Shown: in pieces, positions 6,425-38,717 of the stretch
Numbering within the stretch: position 1 is the first letter of the stretch
Layout of the letters: each line of letters begins with the position of its first letter
Assembly: GCA_004293365.1 (NCBI GenBank)
Contig: RDYN01000024.1
Location: 1 to 64,000 of the forward strand
Origin: Oscillatoriales cyanobacterium
GTDB taxonomy: Bacteria; Cyanobacteriota; Cyanobacteriia; Cyanobacteriales; Microcoleaceae
Length of the DNA stretch: 64,000 nt
Direction: 5' to 3'
The notes under the pieces: generated by a model
The model's database searches: none
What the model was told of the DNA's origin: nothing
What the model saw: only the letters and a program-made list of their open reading frames with translations
Made by a program: the position numbers and the translations under genes

Positions 6425-7270
6425 GTGAATAGATTTTTATTCCGATTCGCGATCGGCTTATTAATGGCATTTTTTGGAGCAATCACCTATTTTACCAGCA
6501 GCGTACAAAATCCCGTAACTGGAGAGAAACAGCGGGTGCAGCTTTCTCCCCGCCAAGAGGTTGTTTTGGGATTGCAGGCGCGAGACAAAATGGCCGCTCA
6601 ATACGGCGGGCTTTATCCCAGCCAGAGTATTCAGCAATATGTCGATCGAGTAGGAGAACGTGTTGTCAACGGTTCAGAGGCGAAAAAAGCGGGTTATCCG
6701 TTTGAATTTCACCTGCTGCGAGACTCCAAAACTGTCAATGCTTTTGCTCTCCCCGGGGGACAAGTTTTCATTACCGCCGGACTCATGCGGCGGCTGAATT
6801 CCGAGGCTCAGTTGGCCGCTGTACTGGGGCACGAGGCCGGTCACGTTGTGGGGCGCCACGGCGCGGAACACTTGGCCAAACAGCAGTTGGGTAGGGCTTT
6901 GGTAACGGCGGTTGGGGTGGCGACTACTGACGATCGCGGTGGCGGACAACAAGCAGCATTAATTGCTCAAGCTGTCAATCAAGTTGTCGGTTTGCGCTAC
7001 GGTAGAGCGGATGAACTTGAGAGCGATCGCCTCGGTTTTAGGTTTATGACCGAGGCGGGTTACGATCCTAGAGGTATTGTTGAAGTGATGAAAATTCTCG
7101 GTGCTGCAAGATCGGGCGAAGCGCCGCCGGAGTTTTTGAGCTCTCACCCAAATCCTGAAAATCGAGTTGAAAAGTTGCAAGCTTTAATCGCGCAAAATTT
7201 CCCTAACGGTGTTCCAGCTAATTTAGTTTCTGGACGCGAAGAGTTTGCTAAGAATGTCTCGGGCGGTTAG
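6425..7270 (+). CDS. M48 family metalloprotease
   Basis: A 281-aa zinc protease starting at GTG 6425. An N-terminal signal anchor (FAIGLLMAFFGAITYF) suggests export or membrane attachment. The HEAGH zinc motif is at about residues 136-140, followed by the third ligand region DELESDRLGFRFM and the SSHPNPENRVEKL motif seen in BepA/LoiP/Oma1-like peptidases. Such enzymes degrade or assist misfolded envelope proteins. Length is normal for the short bacterial M48 type. A TspO-like gene follows in the same direction after about 110 bases. Confidence 0.9.
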   Translation: MNRFLFRFAIGLLMAFFGAITYFTSSVQNPVTGEKQRVQLSPRQEVVLGLQARDKMAAQYGGLYPSQSIQQYVDRVGERVVNGSEAKKAGYPFEFHLLRDSKTVNAFALPGGQVFITAGLMRRLNSEAQLAAVLGHEAGHVVGRHGAEHLAKQQLGRALVTAVGVATTDDRGGGQQAALIAQAVNQVVGLRYGRADELESDRLGFRFMTEAGYDPRGIVEVMKILGAARSGEAPPEFLSSHPNPENRVEKLQALIAQNFPNGVPANLVSGREEFAKNVSGG

Positions 7271-7382
7271 CTATTGTTGCGTCTGGATTTACAAAATTTA
7301 TTGCTAAAGGCGGATGGAGGTTCGGGTGTGAGTTGGCACGATCGACTAATTGAGCGATCGACCAATTTGAAAGTTGAGAACC

Positions 7383-7856
7383 ATGATGCAATCTTGGATG
7401 ATTATCGGCGGCGCGACTTTCTCAGTCGCCTTCGGGACTCTGTTTTTCAAACTCCGCGATATTAACTGGGCGGTCAAACTTCAAAGACCGGATTGGATGT
7501 TTTTTGAGCCGGCGATTCCGTTAATTTGGACTGTGATTTTTGCGATGGGGGCCGGGAGTGCTACCCTCGTGTGGGAACGCGATCCGGGAAGTCTCACAAC
7601 TTGGCTGCTGATGGCTTGGTACTTGCTTTTAGAAATTGTCACAGTTGCTTATATTCCCGCGACTCTCCGAGCGAAAAGCCTGAAAGTAGGGACTATTTTG
7701 GGAGGGGCTGGCGAGATTTTGGGAGTTGTGCTGCTGCTGGCTGTTTGGCCGATTTCTCAAACTGCGGCTTTGTTACTCTTACCTTACGCGATTTGGGGTG
7801 CGATCGGCACTTATACTACTTGGGAAATGATTCAGTTAAACCCAGAAGCTGCATAA
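7383..7856 (+). CDS. TspO/MBR-like membrane protein
   Basis: A protein of about 157 aa predicted to have five transmembrane helices. The family hallmarks are visible: PDWMFFEPAIPLIWTVIF near residue 35 (the W-x-P...P...WT motif of TspO) and a Trp-rich C-terminal half (WLLMAWYLLLEIV, WGAIGTYTTWEM). TspO proteins bind tetrapyrroles and are linked to stress and porphyrin regulation. I chose the ATG at 7383 over an upstream TTG at 7374. It is co-directional with the M48 protease gene and may be co-transcribed with it. It is somewhat divergent from classical TspO, so the function is less certain than the fold. Confidence 0.75.
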   Translation: MMQSWMIIGGATFSVAFGTLFFKLRDINWAVKLQRPDWMFFEPAIPLIWTVIFAMGAGSATLVWERDPGSLTTWLLMAWYLLLEIVTVAYIPATLRAKSLKVGTILGGAGEILGVVLLLAVWPISQTAALLLLPYAIWGAIGTYTTWEMIQLNPEAA

Positions 7857-8156
7857 ATATAACCAACCGCGAAGACGCAAAGAACGCGAAGGAATAAAAA
7901 AGCGAGAGAATCTTGAAACGATTCGGAAATAATAACCATTAAGTAACTCTTAACCAAATATTCATAAATATAACGCTCTTCTCTTCTCTTCTCTTCCTTC
8001 GCTTCTTCGCGTCTTCGCGGTTCGTTCTTAATACCAAATAGGTGCAGCCCAGCTAACCGAACCAATCGAGTGAGGAAATCCGCTTGACACGGCGTCGTCA
8101 TTTGATGACAAAATAAATGAATTAAACTGCTTAAAATTAAAGGATGACAGTTATCA
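7857..8156. repeat. Inverted-repeat element between tspO-like gene and ftsH
   Basis: AACCGCGAAGACGCAAAGAA near 7866 and its approximate reverse complement (CTTCGCGTCTTCGCGGTT near 8008-8025) bound a 165-bp AT-rich stretch, giving a MITE-like or long-hairpin element. The remaining ~130 bases before ftsH hold no ORF and should contain its promoter, though I see no clear -35/-10 pair. Confidence 0.6.
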
Positions 8157-10028
8157 ATGGCAATTAAAGACCAGCCCCAACCCCCTCGTTTTAGGCAAAT
8201 TAGCAATATTGTATTATTGCTATCAAGCTTGTTTCTGCTAGCAAACATCTTTTTGCCCAATTTGTTCGGACCGCAAATTCCGCAAGTTCCTTACAGCTTG
8301 TTCGTCCACCAAGTTCAAGAACAAGATGTGGCGCGAGCTTCGGTAGGCCAAAATGAAATTCGCTACCAACTTAAAGGCGAAGGCGACAAGCCCGGTCAAG
8401 TGCTGTCAACTACGCCAATTTTTGACCTGGATCTGCCTAAACTTTTGCAAGAAAAAGGCGTTGAATTTGCGGCAACTCCGCCTTCCAAAAATGGCTGGAT
8501 CGGCAGTGTTTTAAGCTGGGTGGTTCCGCCGCTGATTTTTGTGGCGATTTTTCAATTTTTCGCGAACCGGGGCGGTGGCGGGCCTCAGGGTGCGCTGTCG
8601 ATCGGCAAAAGCAAAGCTAAGGTCTACGTAGAAGGCGAATCTGCGAAAATCACTTTTGCTGACGTAGCCGGAGTTGAAGAGGCTAAAACTGAATTAGTCG
8701 AAGTTGTGGAATTCCTGAAAACTCCCGACAAATTTACCGCAATTGGCGCGCGCATTCCGAAGGGCGTGCTGTTAGTCGGGCCTCCGGGAACTGGCAAAAC
8801 TCTGTTAGCAAAGGCTGTGGCTGGTGAAGCTGGCGTACCGTTTTTTAGCATCTCCGGTTCGGAGTTTGTAGAGTTGTTCGTGGGTGTCGGTTCTGCGAGA
8901 GTCAGGGATTTATTCGAGCAAGCAAAAAAACAGGCTCCTTGTATTGTTTTCATTGATGAATTGGATGCGATCGGCAAATCTCGCAGCACTAATGCTGCAT
9001 TTGGTGGGAATGACGAACGCGAACAAACTCTCAATCAACTGTTAACTGAAATGGACGGTTTTGCTGTGGGTAATACTACGGTAATTGTGCTGGCTGCAAC
9101 TAACCGCCCGGAAAGTTTGGATGCTGCTTTGTTGCGCCCGGGCCGTTTCGATCGCCAAGTTTTGGTCGATCGCCCGGATTTATCTGGCCGCGAAGCAATT
9201 TTGAATATTCACTCTCAAAAAGTCAAGTTGGGCCCGGATATTGACTTGAAGGCGATCGCCACTCGTACCCCCGGTTTTTCGGGCGCAGATTTGGCAAATT
9301 TGGTCAATGAAGCTGCCTTGCTGGCTGCGCGCAACAAGCGCCTCGCCATAGCGCAGGAAGACTTTTATGAGGCATTTGAGCGCGTTGTAGCTGGCTTGGA
9401 AAAGAAGAGCCGGGTGCTCAACGAGAAGGAGAAAAAGATTGTGGCTTACCACGAAGTCGGGCACGCGATGGTTGGGGCTGCGATGACTGGCGGCGGCGAA
9501 GTCGCGAAAATCTCGATCGTGCCGCGCGGTATGGCTGCATTGGGTTACACGTTGCAGGTTCCGACTGAAGACCGTTTCTTGTTGGATGAGGCGGAGTTGC
9601 GCGGTCAGATTGCTACACTGTTGGGCGGGCGATCGGCTGAGGAAGTCGTCTTCGGTAGCATCACCACCGGCGCCTCCAACGACTTGCAAAGGGCGACTGA
9701 TTTAGCTGAAAGAATGGTCACAACTTACGGTATGAGCAAGGTTTTGGGGCCTCTAGCTTACGATCGCGCTCAACAATCTTTCCTCGGCGATGGTATGGGA
9801 AATGCGCGCCGTGCGGTGAGTGCCCAAACTGCTGAGGCGATCGACCAAGAAGTGAAGGAAATTGTCGAAACAGCGCACCAGCAAGCCTTGGATATTCTCA
9901 AGGAAAATCGAGAGTTGTTGGAAACTATTACGTCGCAACTGTTGGAAACTGAGGTAATTGAAGGTGAAAAACTGCACGACTTCCTGACTCAAGTAAAGCC
10001 TGTAGATAAGGTTTCGGCGGTTGTTTAA
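8157..10028 (+). CDS. ftsH: ATP-dependent zinc metalloprotease FtsH
   Basis: A 623-aa membrane AAA+ protease. There is one transmembrane helix near residues 18-38, a lumenal/periplasmic domain, and a second helix near 120-140. The AAA module follows with Walker A GPPGTGKT (~208-215), Walker B CIVFIDELDAIG, and the second region of homology ending in LRPGRFDRQ. The M41 peptidase zinc site HEVGH is at ~432-436. FtsH hexamers remove damaged membrane proteins, in cyanobacteria including photosystem II subunits. The short divergent N-terminus resembles the FtsH1/FtsH4 class more than the FtsH2/3 class, but this is from memory. All catalytic motifs are intact. A hairpin with a T-run follows the stop. 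Confidence 0.95.
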   Translation: MAIKDQPQPPRFRQISNIVLLLSSLFLLANIFLPNLFGPQIPQVPYSLFVHQVQEQDVARASVGQNEIRYQLKGEGDKPGQVLSTTPIFDLDLPKLLQEKGVEFAATPPSKNGWIGSVLSWVVPPLIFVAIFQFFANRGGGGPQGALSIGKSKAKVYVEGESAKITFADVAGVEEAKTELVEVVEFLKTPDKFTAIGARIPKGVLLVGPPGTGKTLLAKAVAGEAGVPFFSISGSEFVELFVGVGSARVRDLFEQAKKQAPCIVFIDELDAIGKSRSTNAAFGGNDEREQTLNQLLTEMDGFAVGNTTVIVLAATNRPESLDAALLRPGRFDRQVLVDRPDLSGREAILNIHSQKVKLGPDIDLKAIATRTPGFSGADLANLVNEAALLAARNKRLAIAQEDFYEAFERVVAGLEKKSRVLNEKEKKIVAYHEVGHAMVGAAMTGGGEVAKISIVPRGMAALGYTLQVPTEDRFLLDEAELRGQIATLLGGRSAEEVVFGSITTGASNDLQRATDLAERMVTTYGMSKVLGPLAYDRAQQSFLGDGMGNARRAVSAQTAEAIDQEVKEIVETAHQQALDILKENRELLETITSQLLETEVIEGEKLHDFLTQVKPVDKVSAVV

Positions 10029-34913: not shown

Positions 34914-35819
34914 CTATTCCTCCCGCAAATTTTGGACATCTTCCACACTCAAACCAGTAGTTTGACTAATAGTTTGATTGTCAAGAACATTGAGAAGTTG
35001 CCTAGCAATTTCCAGAGCCTTTTCTCTCATTCCTAGCGCGAGTCCTTCTTCTCTGCCTTCTTCTCGCCCTTCTTCTCGCCCTTGTTCTCGTCCTTGTGCG
35101 AGTCCTTCTTCAATTCCCTTTCGCAAGATTCCCTGCTGATCCATAATATACCTCTCGCGATCTTCTAAATCTTTCAACTCTTCAGGATTCAAGTTAGTTT
35201 CATTAGCAATCGCAAAAGCTTGTTGTATTTCCGAGACATTTTCCATTGTTGACGGTACCACTTCCAAACTGGGGGCATTTTTCATAAAATAAACCCACTT
35301 ATCAGTCAAAGTTTCCAACTGATCCAATTGTTTGTTGAATTTGGGCAATTCAATAAATATCATTTCCATCCCTGGATCTGGATACTCAAATAAACGTTCT
35401 TTCTCCTTGAACAAAAAGTGAGAAATTACTTCTCGGTCATTGTCAAACATTTCAAAATCTGTAATTGTCAAAGCAATTACAGGTTTTAACTTAAAATAAC
35501 CTTCACCGCGAATCAGTTGTGTCGAGTAAGTTTTCGCAGTATTGTAAACCACCCGTTTCGCAAAAGATTCTACATTTAAAACTTGCATCTCGATAATTAC
35601 AGTTGCGCCTCCTGCAAGTCTGGCTTTGACATCCAGGTAAGAGTCTTTGAGATACGGGACTCTCGATGCTAAATACGGATCGATAATTTCTAAGTCGGTG
35701 ATGGTGGGATTGCCATCATAAATCATGGCATTGAGAAAGCTGATTAAGATTGGTTTGCTTTCGTTCCCGCCGAAGATTTTTTTGAAGGCAAAATCGGTTT
35801 TGGGGTTAATGAATCTCAT
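34914..35819 (-). CDS. Rpn-family PD-(D/E)XK nuclease / putative transposase
   Basis: The family start MRFINPKTDFAFKKIFG is at 35819; the frame stays open to 35876 but the extra 19 residues are unlikely. The nuclease core shows DFAFKKIFGGNESK, then DLEIIDPY, the DVKAR stretch and VIIEMQVLN, giving the D...E-x-Q variant of PD-(D/E)XK. Rpn (PF12784-like) proteins promote recombination in E. coli and are suspected in defence. The C-terminus contains an exact GREEG repeat (QGREQGREEGREEGREEG), probably grown by DNA slippage, then a helix ALEIARQLLN and the TTGLSVEDVQNLREE tail. Confidence 0.9.
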   Translation of the reverse strand: MRFINPKTDFAFKKIFGGNESKPILISFLNAMIYDGNPTITDLEIIDPYLASRVPYLKDSYLDVKARLAGGATVIIEMQVLNVESFAKRVVYNTAKTYSTQLIRGEGYFKLKPVIALTITDFEMFDNDREVISHFLFKEKERLFEYPDPGMEMIFIELPKFNKQLDQLETLTDKWVYFMKNAPSLEVVPSTMENVSEIQQAFAIANETNLNPEELKDLEDRERYIMDQQGILRKGIEEGLAQGREQGREEGREEGREEGLALGMREKALEIARQLLNVLDNQTISQTTGLSVEDVQNLREE

Positions 35820-36010
35820 TGTTGGTTTCCACTCTCTTTTAGGGATTTGACGACTCAATCTATCGAGCAATGACAATCAAAACATTTTAAAATTTGCTGG
35901 CGGCTGTGGGTATAGCTATATTTTACTATATGGCGATCGCTGAACATCAAGATGTCTTGAATAATTAAAATTATAACTTATACCCTAACAATGCAGCACC
36001 ACATAAAATT

Positions 36011-36087: not shown

Positions 36088-36582
36088 CTATTCGGTCAAA
36101 TCGACTTGTCGAATCTCTTCTAGCGTCAGATCCAAACATTGCGCGATTTGCTCGTCGCTCAATCCTATTGCTTGCAAGCGATCGATCGCCTCAATTTTCG
36201 CCTGCTGCTTTCCCCGCAAAAACTCAGGCGACTCTTCCTGTGACGTGCAGATATTTAAAGAGCCAATTACATGACCGCGAGCGACATGATTCCCACTAAT
36301 GACGCCGCCAGTAACATTGCTAATCATCGACTTGCGAATCAGTGCCGATCGCAAATTTAACTTATTAACCTCTTCTCCAAAAGAATCAGAGAACAACGGC
36401 CATAGCTCGTAGCCCACATCTTTAGCATAACCCTCAGTACAATTCAGCGTTTGAGCAATATCGCCGTACTTTTGCCGCTTCAAAACGCCCTCAATCACAC
36501 CAACTTGCATATCATCTAAATGCTTGCCAGTTTTCGCAAAGACCACTTCATCAGCAAAAGCCAGTGCTTCCTTAACGTTCAT
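36088..36582 (-). CDS. Small HTH protein of the vMAP/NLR-associated type with RHIM-like stretch
   Basis: A 164-aa protein. Residues 1-80 match the HTH domain found at the N-terminus of many cyanobacterial NACHT/NB-ARC, CHAT or vWA-associated proteins (MNVKEALAFADEVVFAKTGKHL, then QKYGDIAQTLNCTEGYAKDVGYELW). Residues 88-112 are Gly/Asn/Val-rich (SNVTGGVISGNHVARGHVIG, then SLN); HVIGSLNI resembles a RHIM-like amyloid core (h-h-G-x-x-N). Residues ~126-160 (AIDRLQAIGLSDEQIAQCLD) resemble the tail of Rpn nucleases such as the neighbouring one. No effector domain is fused. It may be an adaptor or a truncated remnant. Function unproven. Confidence 0.65.
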   Translation of the reverse strand: MNVKEALAFADEVVFAKTGKHLDDMQVGVIEGVLKRQKYGDIAQTLNCTEGYAKDVGYELWPLFSDSFGEEVNKLNLRSALIRKSMISNVTGGVISGNHVARGHVIGSLNICTSQEESPEFLRGKQQAKIEAIDRLQAIGLSDEQIAQCLDLTLEEIRQVDLTE

Positions 36583-36780
36583 CAGATTTCCCCACCAGAG
36601 CGCAACGATCGAACTAAAACCGTCTAGATCCGACTATTTTCGCCTTGAATACAAAAACGATTAAAGCTTTATCAAAACTTTTTATATTATACGACTTTAT
36701 CCGACCTTTTTCGACTATACAAATTAATTGGCAAGCTGTAGCATTGTGAATGTAAAACGATCGCTCAAAGAAACTAACTT
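36583..36780 (+). promoter_or_regulatory. Leader of the precursor gene pair
   Basis: The region has CGACTTTATCCGACC and TTCGACTATAC words, and then AATGTAAAAC (36749-36758) with CTCAAAGAAACTAACTT before the ATG. AATGTAAAAC recurs at 37131-37140 at the same place before the second precursor gene, so the duplicated unit includes its 5' flank. No convincing Shine-Dalgarno site is visible for either precursor. Confidence 0.5.
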
Positions 36781-36999
36781 ATGACGACTACCCAACTCGC
36801 TCTCGACAAAAAAGCAAATCCTTTGATGATGCACCTGAGCATCTTGCCCAAGTACAGCATCTCGCAAGAGCAAGCTAGCTACGATCCCAGCACCCAGACC
36901 TCCAACATCACCTCCATGAGTGGCTCCTGGTCTACTCGTGCTGGCTCCAGTATTTTTCAGTTTGAACCTAGTGATGACGACCAGCAAGAGGACGACTAG
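36781..36999 (+). CDS. Graspetide-type precursor peptide, copy 1
   Basis: A 72-aa peptide directly upstream, on the same strand, of a second copy and an MvdC/MvdD-type ATP-grasp ligase. A leader of about 30 residues (MTTTQLALDKKANPLMMHLS) is followed by a Ser/Thr-rich core (QASYDPSTQTSNITSMSGSW, residues 31-50) and a very acidic tail (SDDDQQEDD, 64-72). Side-chain hydroxyls and carboxylates for omega-ester bonds are therefore abundant. The microviridin core T-x-K-Y-P-S-D is absent. Identity to copy 2 is highest in the leader and tail. Assignment as a RiPP precursor is inferred from size, duplication and context. Confidence 0.75.
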   Translation: MTTTQLALDKKANPLMMHLSILPKYSISQEQASYDPSTQTSNITSMSGSWSTRAGSSIFQFEPSDDDQQEDD

Positions 37000-37044
37000 A
37001 ATTTTGAATTACTAAGAAATAATTCGATCGCCCTTTATGTTCTT

Positions 37045-37081
37045 GAAAGACCTGTATGAATTTTTGCATGACAGGTCTTTC
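37045..37081 (+). terminator. Conserved hairpin after precursor 1
   Basis: GAAAGACCTGT at 37045-37055 pairs with ACAGGTCTTTC at 37071-37081 (11-bp perfect stem, loop of 15 bases). There is no T-run after the stem, so it could be a partial terminator, an RNA-stability element or a processing site. Confidence 0.7.
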
Positions 37082-37162
37082 ACTATCAACATTATTTCAA
37101 TTAGTTTGATTGCGATACCAGTTTCACAAAAATGTAAAACCATAACTCAAAAAAACTAATGT

Positions 37163-37387
37163 ATGACGACTACCCAACTCGCTCTTGACAAAAAAGCGCA
37201 TCCTTTGATGATGCACCTGAGCATCTCGCCCAAGTACGGCATCTCCCAAGAGCAGTCTAGCTACGATCCCACCACCCAGACTTCCAACATCTCCTCCATG
37301 AGTGGCTCCTGGTGTGCTCGCAGTAGCTCCACTGGAGATATTATTTTCAGACCTCCTACTGATGACGACCAGCAAGAGGACGACTAG
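37163..37387 (+). CDS. Graspetide-type precursor peptide, copy 2
   Basis: A 74-aa paralogue of the upstream precursor; the ATG-to-ATG distance is 382 bases, and the whole unit including the downstream hairpin is duplicated. The N-terminal TTTQLALDKKA and PLMMHLSI are kept, as are SYDP, TQTSNI, SSMSGSW and the acidic DDDQQEDD end. Differences cluster in residues 51-65 (CARSSSTGDIIFRPP versus STRAGSSIFQFEP), so this part may form a variable loop or face a target. A Cys appears at 51. The pattern, with constant leader and tail and a variable middle, fits paired RiPP precursors handled by one ligase. Confidence 0.75.
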   Translation: MTTTQLALDKKAHPLMMHLSISPKYGISQEQSSYDPTTQTSNISSMSGSWCARSSSTGDIIFRPPTDDDQQEDD

Positions 37388-37432
37388 AATTTTGAATTAC
37401 TAACAAATAATTCGATCGCTCTTTCTTTTCTT

Positions 37433-37469
37433 GAAAGACCTGTCTGAATTTTTGCATGACAGGTCTTTC
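37433..37469 (+). terminator. Conserved hairpin between precursor 2 and ligase
   Basis: The same 11-bp stem as at 37045-37081 (GAAAGACCTGT at 37433-37443, ACAGGTCTTTC at 37459-37469), with one base changed at the loop edge. It lies 31 bases before the ligase ATG at 37500. Its position suggests control of precursor-to-enzyme ratio by partial termination or mRNA protection. Confidence 0.7.
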
Positions 37470-37499
37470 ATTGTCAACATTACTTCAATTAATTTAGTT

Positions 37500-38504
37500 A
37501 TGACTGACCTTTTAATCGTGACTTCCGAGACAGACATTCATGCAGATATCGTTATCAACGAATTGCAAAAATCAAATATTCGAGCAATTAGATTGAATTC
37601 CGAAAATTTTATTCAAAAAAGCAAATATGCTTACTCGTGGCAAGCTTCTGGCAATCCCAGTCAAAGTTTTTTGTTTTTTGAAGACTCCTTGAAAGAAGCT
37701 CAAGATATTGGCGTGATTTGGTGGCGAAAACCACAAAATTATCAAGTATTTCCGGAAGTTGATGATGCTTGGGCAATCAAGTATTGTCAAGAAGAAACAG
37801 AATCTTTAATGTACTCTCTGTCTGGCTTATATCCCAAAGCGAGGTGGGTTAATAACTACTACAAGATTAGATTGCCATCCCATCGCATCAACCAAATCCC
37901 CATTGCTCAAAAACTGGGAATTACTATCCCTCCCACACTCGTCACAAATTCCTACGACGCTGCTTGCAACTTTGTGACACAACAGGGAAAGTGCATTGTC
38001 AAACCGATGCGATACTCGGGATTCCTACATGATGACAAGCAGTACGCTTGCTATACTCGTCCCATTGATGTTGAAACACTTGAAGCATTTCGAGAGAGCA
38101 TTCGACTGGCACCTGTTTTCATTCAAAAACGCATTCAAAAGAAAGCAGAATATCGCGTTACATTAATCGGTAAGCATCATTTTGTTTGCCGCATTGATGC
38201 CGAACATACCAACGATGCAGACGTGACCTTAGATTGGCGCGTTACCGAACCAGACAAACTCGTTCATGTTCCAGATAGACTGCCGATAGATTACCTCAAC
38301 AAACTCCATCAAATGCTTGACGAGTTAGGCTTAAATTTTGGTGCATTCGACATCATTCGCGACGCTGACGATACGCTTTATTTTATCGAACTCAATCCCA
38401 ACGGACAGTGGTATTGGATCGAAATTCTCACTAAAATGCCTATGGTTCGCGCAATGGTTGAACTCATCGAAGATTTAGCGCTTCAATATCAACAGGATTG
38501 CTGA
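37500..38504 (+). CDS. ATP-grasp peptide ligase, MvdC/MvdD-type (graspetide maturase)
   Basis: A 334-aa enzyme from the ATG at 37500; the open frame extends to 37431 but that part lies in the hairpin. The N-terminal pre-grasp domain begins MTDLLIVTSETDIHADIV. ATP-grasp features are CIVKPMRYSG (Lys168), PVFIQKRIQKKAEYRVTLIG (205-224), and GAFDIIRD with FIELNPNGQWYWIE (Glu297, Asn299, Asn301 for Mg-ATP). The ELNPNGQWYWIE ending is typical of MvdC/MvdD enzymes. These join Ser/Thr hydroxyls or Lys amines to Asp/Glu carboxyls in a precursor peptide. It is the only ligase here, and no acetyltransferase, protease or ABC exporter gene is close by. Confidence 0.88.
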   Translation: MTDLLIVTSETDIHADIVINELQKSNIRAIRLNSENFIQKSKYAYSWQASGNPSQSFLFFEDSLKEAQDIGVIWWRKPQNYQVFPEVDDAWAIKYCQEETESLMYSLSGLYPKARWVNNYYKIRLPSHRINQIPIAQKLGITIPPTLVTNSYDAACNFVTQQGKCIVKPMRYSGFLHDDKQYACYTRPIDVETLEAFRESIRLAPVFIQKRIQKKAEYRVTLIGKHHFVCRIDAEHTNDADVTLDWRVTEPDKLVHVPDRLPIDYLNKLHQMLDELGLNFGAFDIIRDADDTLYFIELNPNGQWYWIEILTKMPMVRAMVELIEDLALQYQQDC

Positions 38505-38540
38505 ATTTTATCAAGAATTTATCGTCGCCCGCCTAGGAAA

Positions 38541-38687
38541 GAAACCGGGTTTTTTGCTGAGATTAAAAGTTGTGATGGGATAGTTGACTAAAAAACCCGG
38601 TTTCTGGTGCCCCGCCTGGGAAAGAAACCGGGTTTTTTGCTGAGATTAAAAGTTGTGATGGGATAGTTGACTAAAAAACCCGGTTTC
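38541..38687. repeat. Two tandem GAAACCGGG hairpin units after the ligase
   Basis: Two 83-bp units, hairpins at 38541-38604 and 38624-38687, pair GAAACCGGGTTTTTT with AAAAAACCCGGTTTC around an identical TGCTGAGATTAAAAGTTGTG loop. They end the precursor/ligase unit and the opposing HD-domain gene, and probably work as a bidirectional terminator. Confidence 0.9.
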
Positions 38688-38717
38688 TGGTGCCCCGCCT
38701 GGGAAAGAAACTAAACC

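Follow-up and report, generated by a model that had tools for sequence, protein, structure and literature searches.

The window, i.e., the whole 64,000-nucleotide stretch of Oscillatoriales cyanobacterial DNA analysed here (contig RDYN01000024.1), probably carries a graspetide cassette of a distinct cyanobacterial clade, in which hairpins would keep precursor output above that of the ligase and a divergent HTH protein would act through iterons as a switch. Every feature that can be tested in sequence places the predicted chemistry of the cassette in the graspetide class: a macrocyclase-type ATP-grasp enzyme retains the conserved catalytic residues, an adjacent precursor bears a Phh-type leader helix, and conserved Ser/Thr/Lys residues stand N-terminal to conserved Asp/Glu residues (SxSW...S[ST], then DxDxQEDD), the ESFC-1 homologue being without this tail. 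This agrees with an earlier sequence-only reading, which had proposed a graspetide-type, non-microviridin cassette with a single ligase.

Organization of the cassette

The genes for two precursors, of 72 aa (36781..36999) and 74 aa (37163..37387), and for a 334-aa ATP-grasp graspetide synthetase (37500..38504) follow one another on the plus strand, which confirms the order read earlier, i.e., two paralogues with DDDQQEDD tails ahead of a ligase. In precursor 1, the leader segments PLMMHLSI and YDPSTQTSN precede the core ITSMSGSWSTRAGSSIFQFEPSDDDQQEDD, and the same leader is followed by the core ISSMSGSWCARSSSTGDIIFRPPTDDDQQEDD in precursor 2. A further part of the cassette, which the sequence-only reading did not mention, is a divergent gene on the minus strand (36088..36582) that encodes a 164-aa candidate regulator with HTH-like segments at both ends. 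Acetyltransferase and exporter genes are, as had been claimed, absent among the genes adjoining the cassette. An adjacent exporter or protease that could explain maturation was looked for beside the cassette and not found, and none of the four C39 peptidase genes elsewhere in the genome is linked to it; the export of the product and its biological role are presumed.

Just 3' of the ligase, a tandem direct repeat of ~95 bp (window 38530-38710) contains AAAGAAACCGGGTTTTTTGCTGAG...AAAAAACCCGGTTTCT. The genome also holds a second, unrelated graspetide-type ATP-grasp gene (G000:C86:8470-9405; L095, L043), which is preceded by a small ORF with the double-glycine motif EQAAQVGGG.

Each precursor gene is followed by a hairpin on the plus strand: TGAAAGACCTGT...ACAGGTCTTTCA lies between the two precursors (37044..37082; z -3.5 for the spacer), and a second lies in the spacer between precursor 2 and the ligase (37432..37470; z -5.0). 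Hairpins occupy the matching place in the other close loci, including that of Limnothrix, where the sequence is wholly different and ~12 pairs are kept, and, again with a different sequence, in two other graspetide subfamilies, with z between -2.1 and -5.5 in all of these regions except L022b. The hairpin is best read as a putative partial terminator or RNA-stabilising element that sets the precursor above the ligase.

Precursor peptides

Alignment of 13 close precursors resolves the peptides into the segments PLMMHLSI, Y[DN]PxxQTSN and [IFV][ST]xMSGSW[CS], a loop, and the tail DxDxQEDD, with PLMMH invariant in the close family. The frame of both precursors is kept in relatives, which marks them as coding. 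Within Microcoleus, pN/pS amounts to 0.36 in the leader, 0.09 in the YDP motif, 0.30 in the SGSW segment, 0.06 in the tail and 1.48 in the loop, and the same pattern is found in a Phormidium pair (loop 2.1) and more weakly in a Limnothrix pair (loop 0.6), the loop values hinging on the alignment because the loop is gapped. Judging by these ratios, purifying selection acts on the SxSW segment and on the acidic tail, and what separates the two is fast-evolving; residues 51-65, noted earlier as differing between the two copies, are indeed a hypervariable stretch between constant segments.

The earlier placement of the acceptors in the acidic tail is supported as probable. The donors had been placed in TQTSNI-S/T-SMSGSW, and this proposal has to be divided: the Ser/Thr residues of MSGSW stand as candidates, whereas TQTSNI most likely belongs to the leader, given that YDPxTQTSNI is found again ahead of cores that are unrelated. 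It precedes entirely different cores in L053, L074 and L115, whose ligases are 27-28% identical; as YDPKTQTSNI, it stands ahead of TSLTYRDTLSGFLNASTDDAEQSDT in L053 and ahead of another core in L115. Y[DN]PxxQ hardly varies from one subfamily to the next, and all that follows the motif changes. As donors, the conserved Ser/Thr residues of MSGSW and the (S)S-T just ahead of the loop are more plausible; for the links themselves, the best candidates are the hydroxyls that stay constant in SxSW and S[ST] before the loop, together with the acids that follow it. The pattern of conservation and selection fits a peptide closed by predicted side-chain links around a hypervariable loop. Residue 51 (36931-36933; 37313-37315), next to the SGSW motif, is Cys in 11 of the 13 close precursors, with copy 1 and L003 carrying Ser instead; for this Cys/Ser swap, a thioester, a nucleophile or a spectator role is possible.

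The family model TIGR04186 matches the precursors weakly over residues 28-52, at 15.1 bits against a cut-off of 25 bits. Exceptions to the precursor pattern are the ESFC-1 precursor (L025), which has no acidic tail, the degenerate L005 and the damaged L010.

Divergent HTH gene and iterons

Wherever upstream sequence is available in the close family, the HTH gene lies divergent to the precursor (49-96% identity). Profile searches in Pfam gave no hit for the HTH of the candidate regulator in the window, which may be of the vMAP type; in relatives, HTH_23 matches both halves of the protein weakly. At Arthrospira-type and L053/L074-type loci, the equivalent divergent position is occupied by a protein that begins with the same HTH and, in complete cases, is ~440-470 aa long; all three of these larger proteins that were scanned have an NB-ARC domain. 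The 164-aa protein of the window has its HTH part in common with the HTH-NB-ARC regulators of its genome and has no NB-ARC domain. At the L053-type locus L115, a protein with a LuxR-type HTH, an NTPase and TPRs (6988-9378) replaces the divergent HTH-NB-ARC gene. A search for the HTH gene found none at 23 MvdC/D loci (~1.5 kb of flank each) or at 16 shorter single ATP-grasp loci with longer flanks (L079-L092, L094, L095).

The shared intergenic region contains two arrays of half-sites. Array A comprises three CGNCY half-sites on the plus strand (36621..36645; at 36621, 36631 and 36641), whose 10-bp spacing is kept in Microcoleus and Phormidium loci. Array B, ~70 bp 5' of the first precursor ATG, comprises three CGACY half-sites on the plus strand (36692..36716; at 36692, 36702 and 36712; CGACTTTATCCGACCTTTTTCGACT) and is conserved down to ESFC-1 and Limnothrix. 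The overall spacing of 10-10-51-10-10 recurs in Microcoleus relatives. Against dinucleotide shuffles, 10 graspetide regions score a combined lag-10 Z of 13.0 and 13 paralogue regions one of 9.9, lag 20 being raised as well, compared with -0.3 for 12 control divergent regions; these values are relative, since lags 9 and 11 reach Z ~4 in the controls and the repeat statistic is therefore imperfectly calibrated. By eye, the half-site words are CGAC in the window type, CCCA[CT] in the Arthrospira type, and CCGTC, CCTAC and CCAAC in paralogue groups, so that the word seems to vary with the HTH subfamily. A clear iteron array is lacking in the paralogues L105, L111 and L112.

The divergent gene might instead be an old neighbour or a mobile-element relic rather than a regulator of the cassette, given that an Rpn-type gene is located beside it (34914-35876) and that the C-terminal 40 aa of the HTH protein match the C-terminus of Rpn proteins (TIGR01784) and resemble Rpn transposases. 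We consider this unlikely, since the pair of HTH gene and cassette persists while the outer flanks differ among Microcoleus, Phormidium, Limnothrix and ESFC-1, HTH-NB-ARC relatives occupy the same place in other graspetide subfamilies, the 10-bp iterons are conserved in the intergenic region, and 14 of the 15 further HTH paralogues in the window genome are divergent to a gene 141-319 bp away. The preferred assignment of the gene is that of a cassette regulator.

Fourteen divergent paralogues of HTH or HTH-plus-NTPase size, most with 10-bp-phased repeats, have the appearance of lineage-expanded local regulators (L099-L112, on contigs G000:C1, C10, C204, C8, C80, C181, C92, C195, C194, C174, C46, C35, C152 and C5).

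Distribution and decay in relatives

Its relatives suggest that the window comes from a Microcoleus-like cyanobacterium. A precursor homologue is present in 9 of 30 genomes of the genus, and the distribution of the cassette is patchy, with a close ligase in only 5 of 386 sampled cyanobacterial genomes. The sequence-only reading had named precursors without an ATP-grasp neighbour as evidence that would speak against it; these were searched for in the genus, Phormidium, Limnothrix and ESFC-1, and no orphan was found, every precursor homologue adjoining a homologue of the ligase. The tandem precursor pair is not unique to the window, as the L009 contig opens with the tail of copy 1. The contig of L019 (DMHA01000062.1, labelled Flavobacterium sp. 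UBA8409) is near-identical to the cyanobacterial L017 and was probably misbinned.

Ligase fragments alone are retained in five related strains (L021, L026, L028, L030, L048), and the precursors of L005 and L010 are broken, which could indicate that the cassette is a decaying relic in the window genome as well. There is little probability of this, as no part is damaged in the window, the ligase retains its catalytic columns and selection follows the pattern of a functional gene; a working cassette is the favoured reading for the window. In L021 (5826-6294) and L048 (1304-2166), deletions whose end points differ between the two strains have removed the precursors and the shared promoter, leaving the C-terminal portion of the HTH gene fused to a middle portion of the ligase.

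The ATP-grasp ligase

The ligase starts at the ATG at 37500, as in relatives, and resembles PDB 5ig8/7m4s/7mgv in both sequence and predicted fold. It matches TIGR04187 at 3.4e-62 (210.5 bits, below the curated cut-off of 350 bits), the MvdC model at 5.9e-52 and the MvdD model at 4e-46, the latter two likewise below their curated cut-offs, while the match to PF21068, the graspetide-type N-terminal domain, lies above the cut-off. The PDB folds nearest to its AlphaFold model (pLDDT 91) are those of CdnC in complex with leader and core, of AMdnB, MdnC, PruB (the prunipeptin ligase) and MdnB, then of PsnB, with RimK clearly more distant than the macrocyclases. Residues D284, E297 and N299 are invariant among 25 aligned ligases. 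In a maximum-likelihood tree, the window ligase falls in a 16-member clade, whose nearest cyanobacterial relatives are the Arthrospira-type ligases, the join being only moderately supported.

The end of the ligase, ELNPNGQWYWIE, had been called typical of MvdC/MvdD. Alignment A1 contradicts this: the MvdC/D pair ends in EVNPTGEWGMLE and EVNPVGEFFWLE, i.e., EVNPTGEW or EVNPVGEF, and the NPNGQWYWIE ending marks the branch containing the window ligase.

Addition of amino acids to the acidic tail by a RimK-style ATP-grasp enzyme, so that small proteins would be tagged instead of ringed, would suit an acidic C-terminal tail like those of RimK/LysX substrates and the matches to RimK and ArgX/LysX folds; it is nevertheless very improbable, as the macrocyclases are far closer in fold and sequence (E 1e-28 vs 2e-15), PF21068 is present, and the conserved upstream Ser/Thr would be left unexplained. 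A divergent microviridin pathway, building the same tricyclic cage with one ligase, shares the fold and gene order and is favoured by an MvdC-model E value of 5.9e-52 (below the curated cut-off), but we reject it as scarcely credible on the tree and the motifs, since the PFFARFL leader is absent, the TxKYPSD core is missing from both precursors as already noted in the earlier reading, a single ligase takes the place of the MvdC and MvdD pair, and the window clade (support 100/100) stands apart from the separate group of 44 cyanobacterial MvdC/MvdD ligases (100/99).

Proposed mechanism

Under the graspetide assignment, the ligase would bind the leader through the helix PLMMHLSI and then the YDPxTQT motif, and would phosphorylate Asp/Glu carboxylates of the DxDxQEDD tail. 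The activated carboxylates would be joined to hydroxyls, and possibly to Cys51, of the constant SxSW...S[ST] segment by presumed ester or amide links, and the predicted rings would enclose a hypervariable loop, some 5-14 residues long, that would carry the specificity. The probable effect of the hairpin 3' of each precursor gene is to limit transcription or to protect the mRNA, so that precursor would be made in excess of ligase. Switching of the cassette is probably the task of the divergent HTH protein, through putative binding to the two half-site triplets, in each of which the half-sites lie one helical turn (10 bp) apart.

A wider reading, which we advance tentatively and rate a little below even, is that filamentous cyanobacteria use an expanded family of small local switches, built from the HTH either by itself or in fusion with an NB-ARC STAND-type NTPase, that each switch would read its own 10-bp-phased iterons in a divergent promoter, and that a number of unrelated graspetide cassettes have come under this control by recruitment. 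Graspetide production would then be an NTPase-gated response and not constitutive secondary metabolism.

The literature searched held nothing relevant on a cyanobacterial graspetide regulator, on graspetides in Oscillatoriales or on divergent NB-ARC regulators, and the link between graspetide cassettes of three subfamilies and a divergent HTH/NB-ARC regulator candidate with helically phased putative operators is undescribed there. Such a regulator would offer a direct handle for switching on silent cassettes, and the compact scaffold of this cyanobacterial graspetide, its loop hypervariable by nature, could serve as a ready template for ring engineering and inhibitor discovery.

Comparison with known systems

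The catalogue of Makarova et al. lists 174 graspetide families (PMC8939145), and Carter et al. define RODEO groups 1-43, several of which consist of ligase and precursor only (PMC13097080); it is possible that the window clade is already within their member lists. Makarova et al. counted only co-directional neighbours in the same directon, a criterion that by its nature overlooks a divergent regulator (PMC8939145).

The cassette resembles the microviridin systems (MdnA/B/C, MvdA/C/D) in its predicted leader-guided ATP-grasp ligase, the ligase fold (5ig8, 5ig9, 7m4s) and the predicted placement of Ser/Thr donors before acidic acceptors, but differs in leader and core motifs, ligase number and ligase clade, and is without a nearby acetyltransferase or exporter. 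The actinobacterial GRASP_targ/GRASP_SAV_5884 graspetides (TIGR04186/TIGR04187; prunipeptin PruB, fuscimiditide ThfB) share with it the best family match of the ligase, TIGR04187, the weak TIGR04186 match and the presumed tail acceptors, and its variable loop bounded by constant segments recalls the stem-loop of fuscimiditide (PMC12291112). However, the window cassette is cyanobacterial, has a different core and falls under both curated cut-offs; the PIMT-type methyltransferase, hallmark of the graspimiditides (fuscimiditide group), was not found among its immediate neighbours. Two other types of cyanobacterial cassette with a single ligase, the Arthrospira/Okeania/Roseofilum type (L017, L018, L022, L029) and the L053/L074/L115 type, have in common with the window a Phh plus Y[DN]PxxQ leader, an acidic tail, an intergenic hairpin and a divergent HTH-bearing gene. 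They differ in their ligases, 27-35% identical to that of the window, in their cores (TSTSxKxST... or TSLTY...) and in their regulators, which are HTH-NB-ARC proteins in the Arthrospira/Okeania/Roseofilum and L053/L074 types and a LuxR-NTPase-TPR protein in L115.
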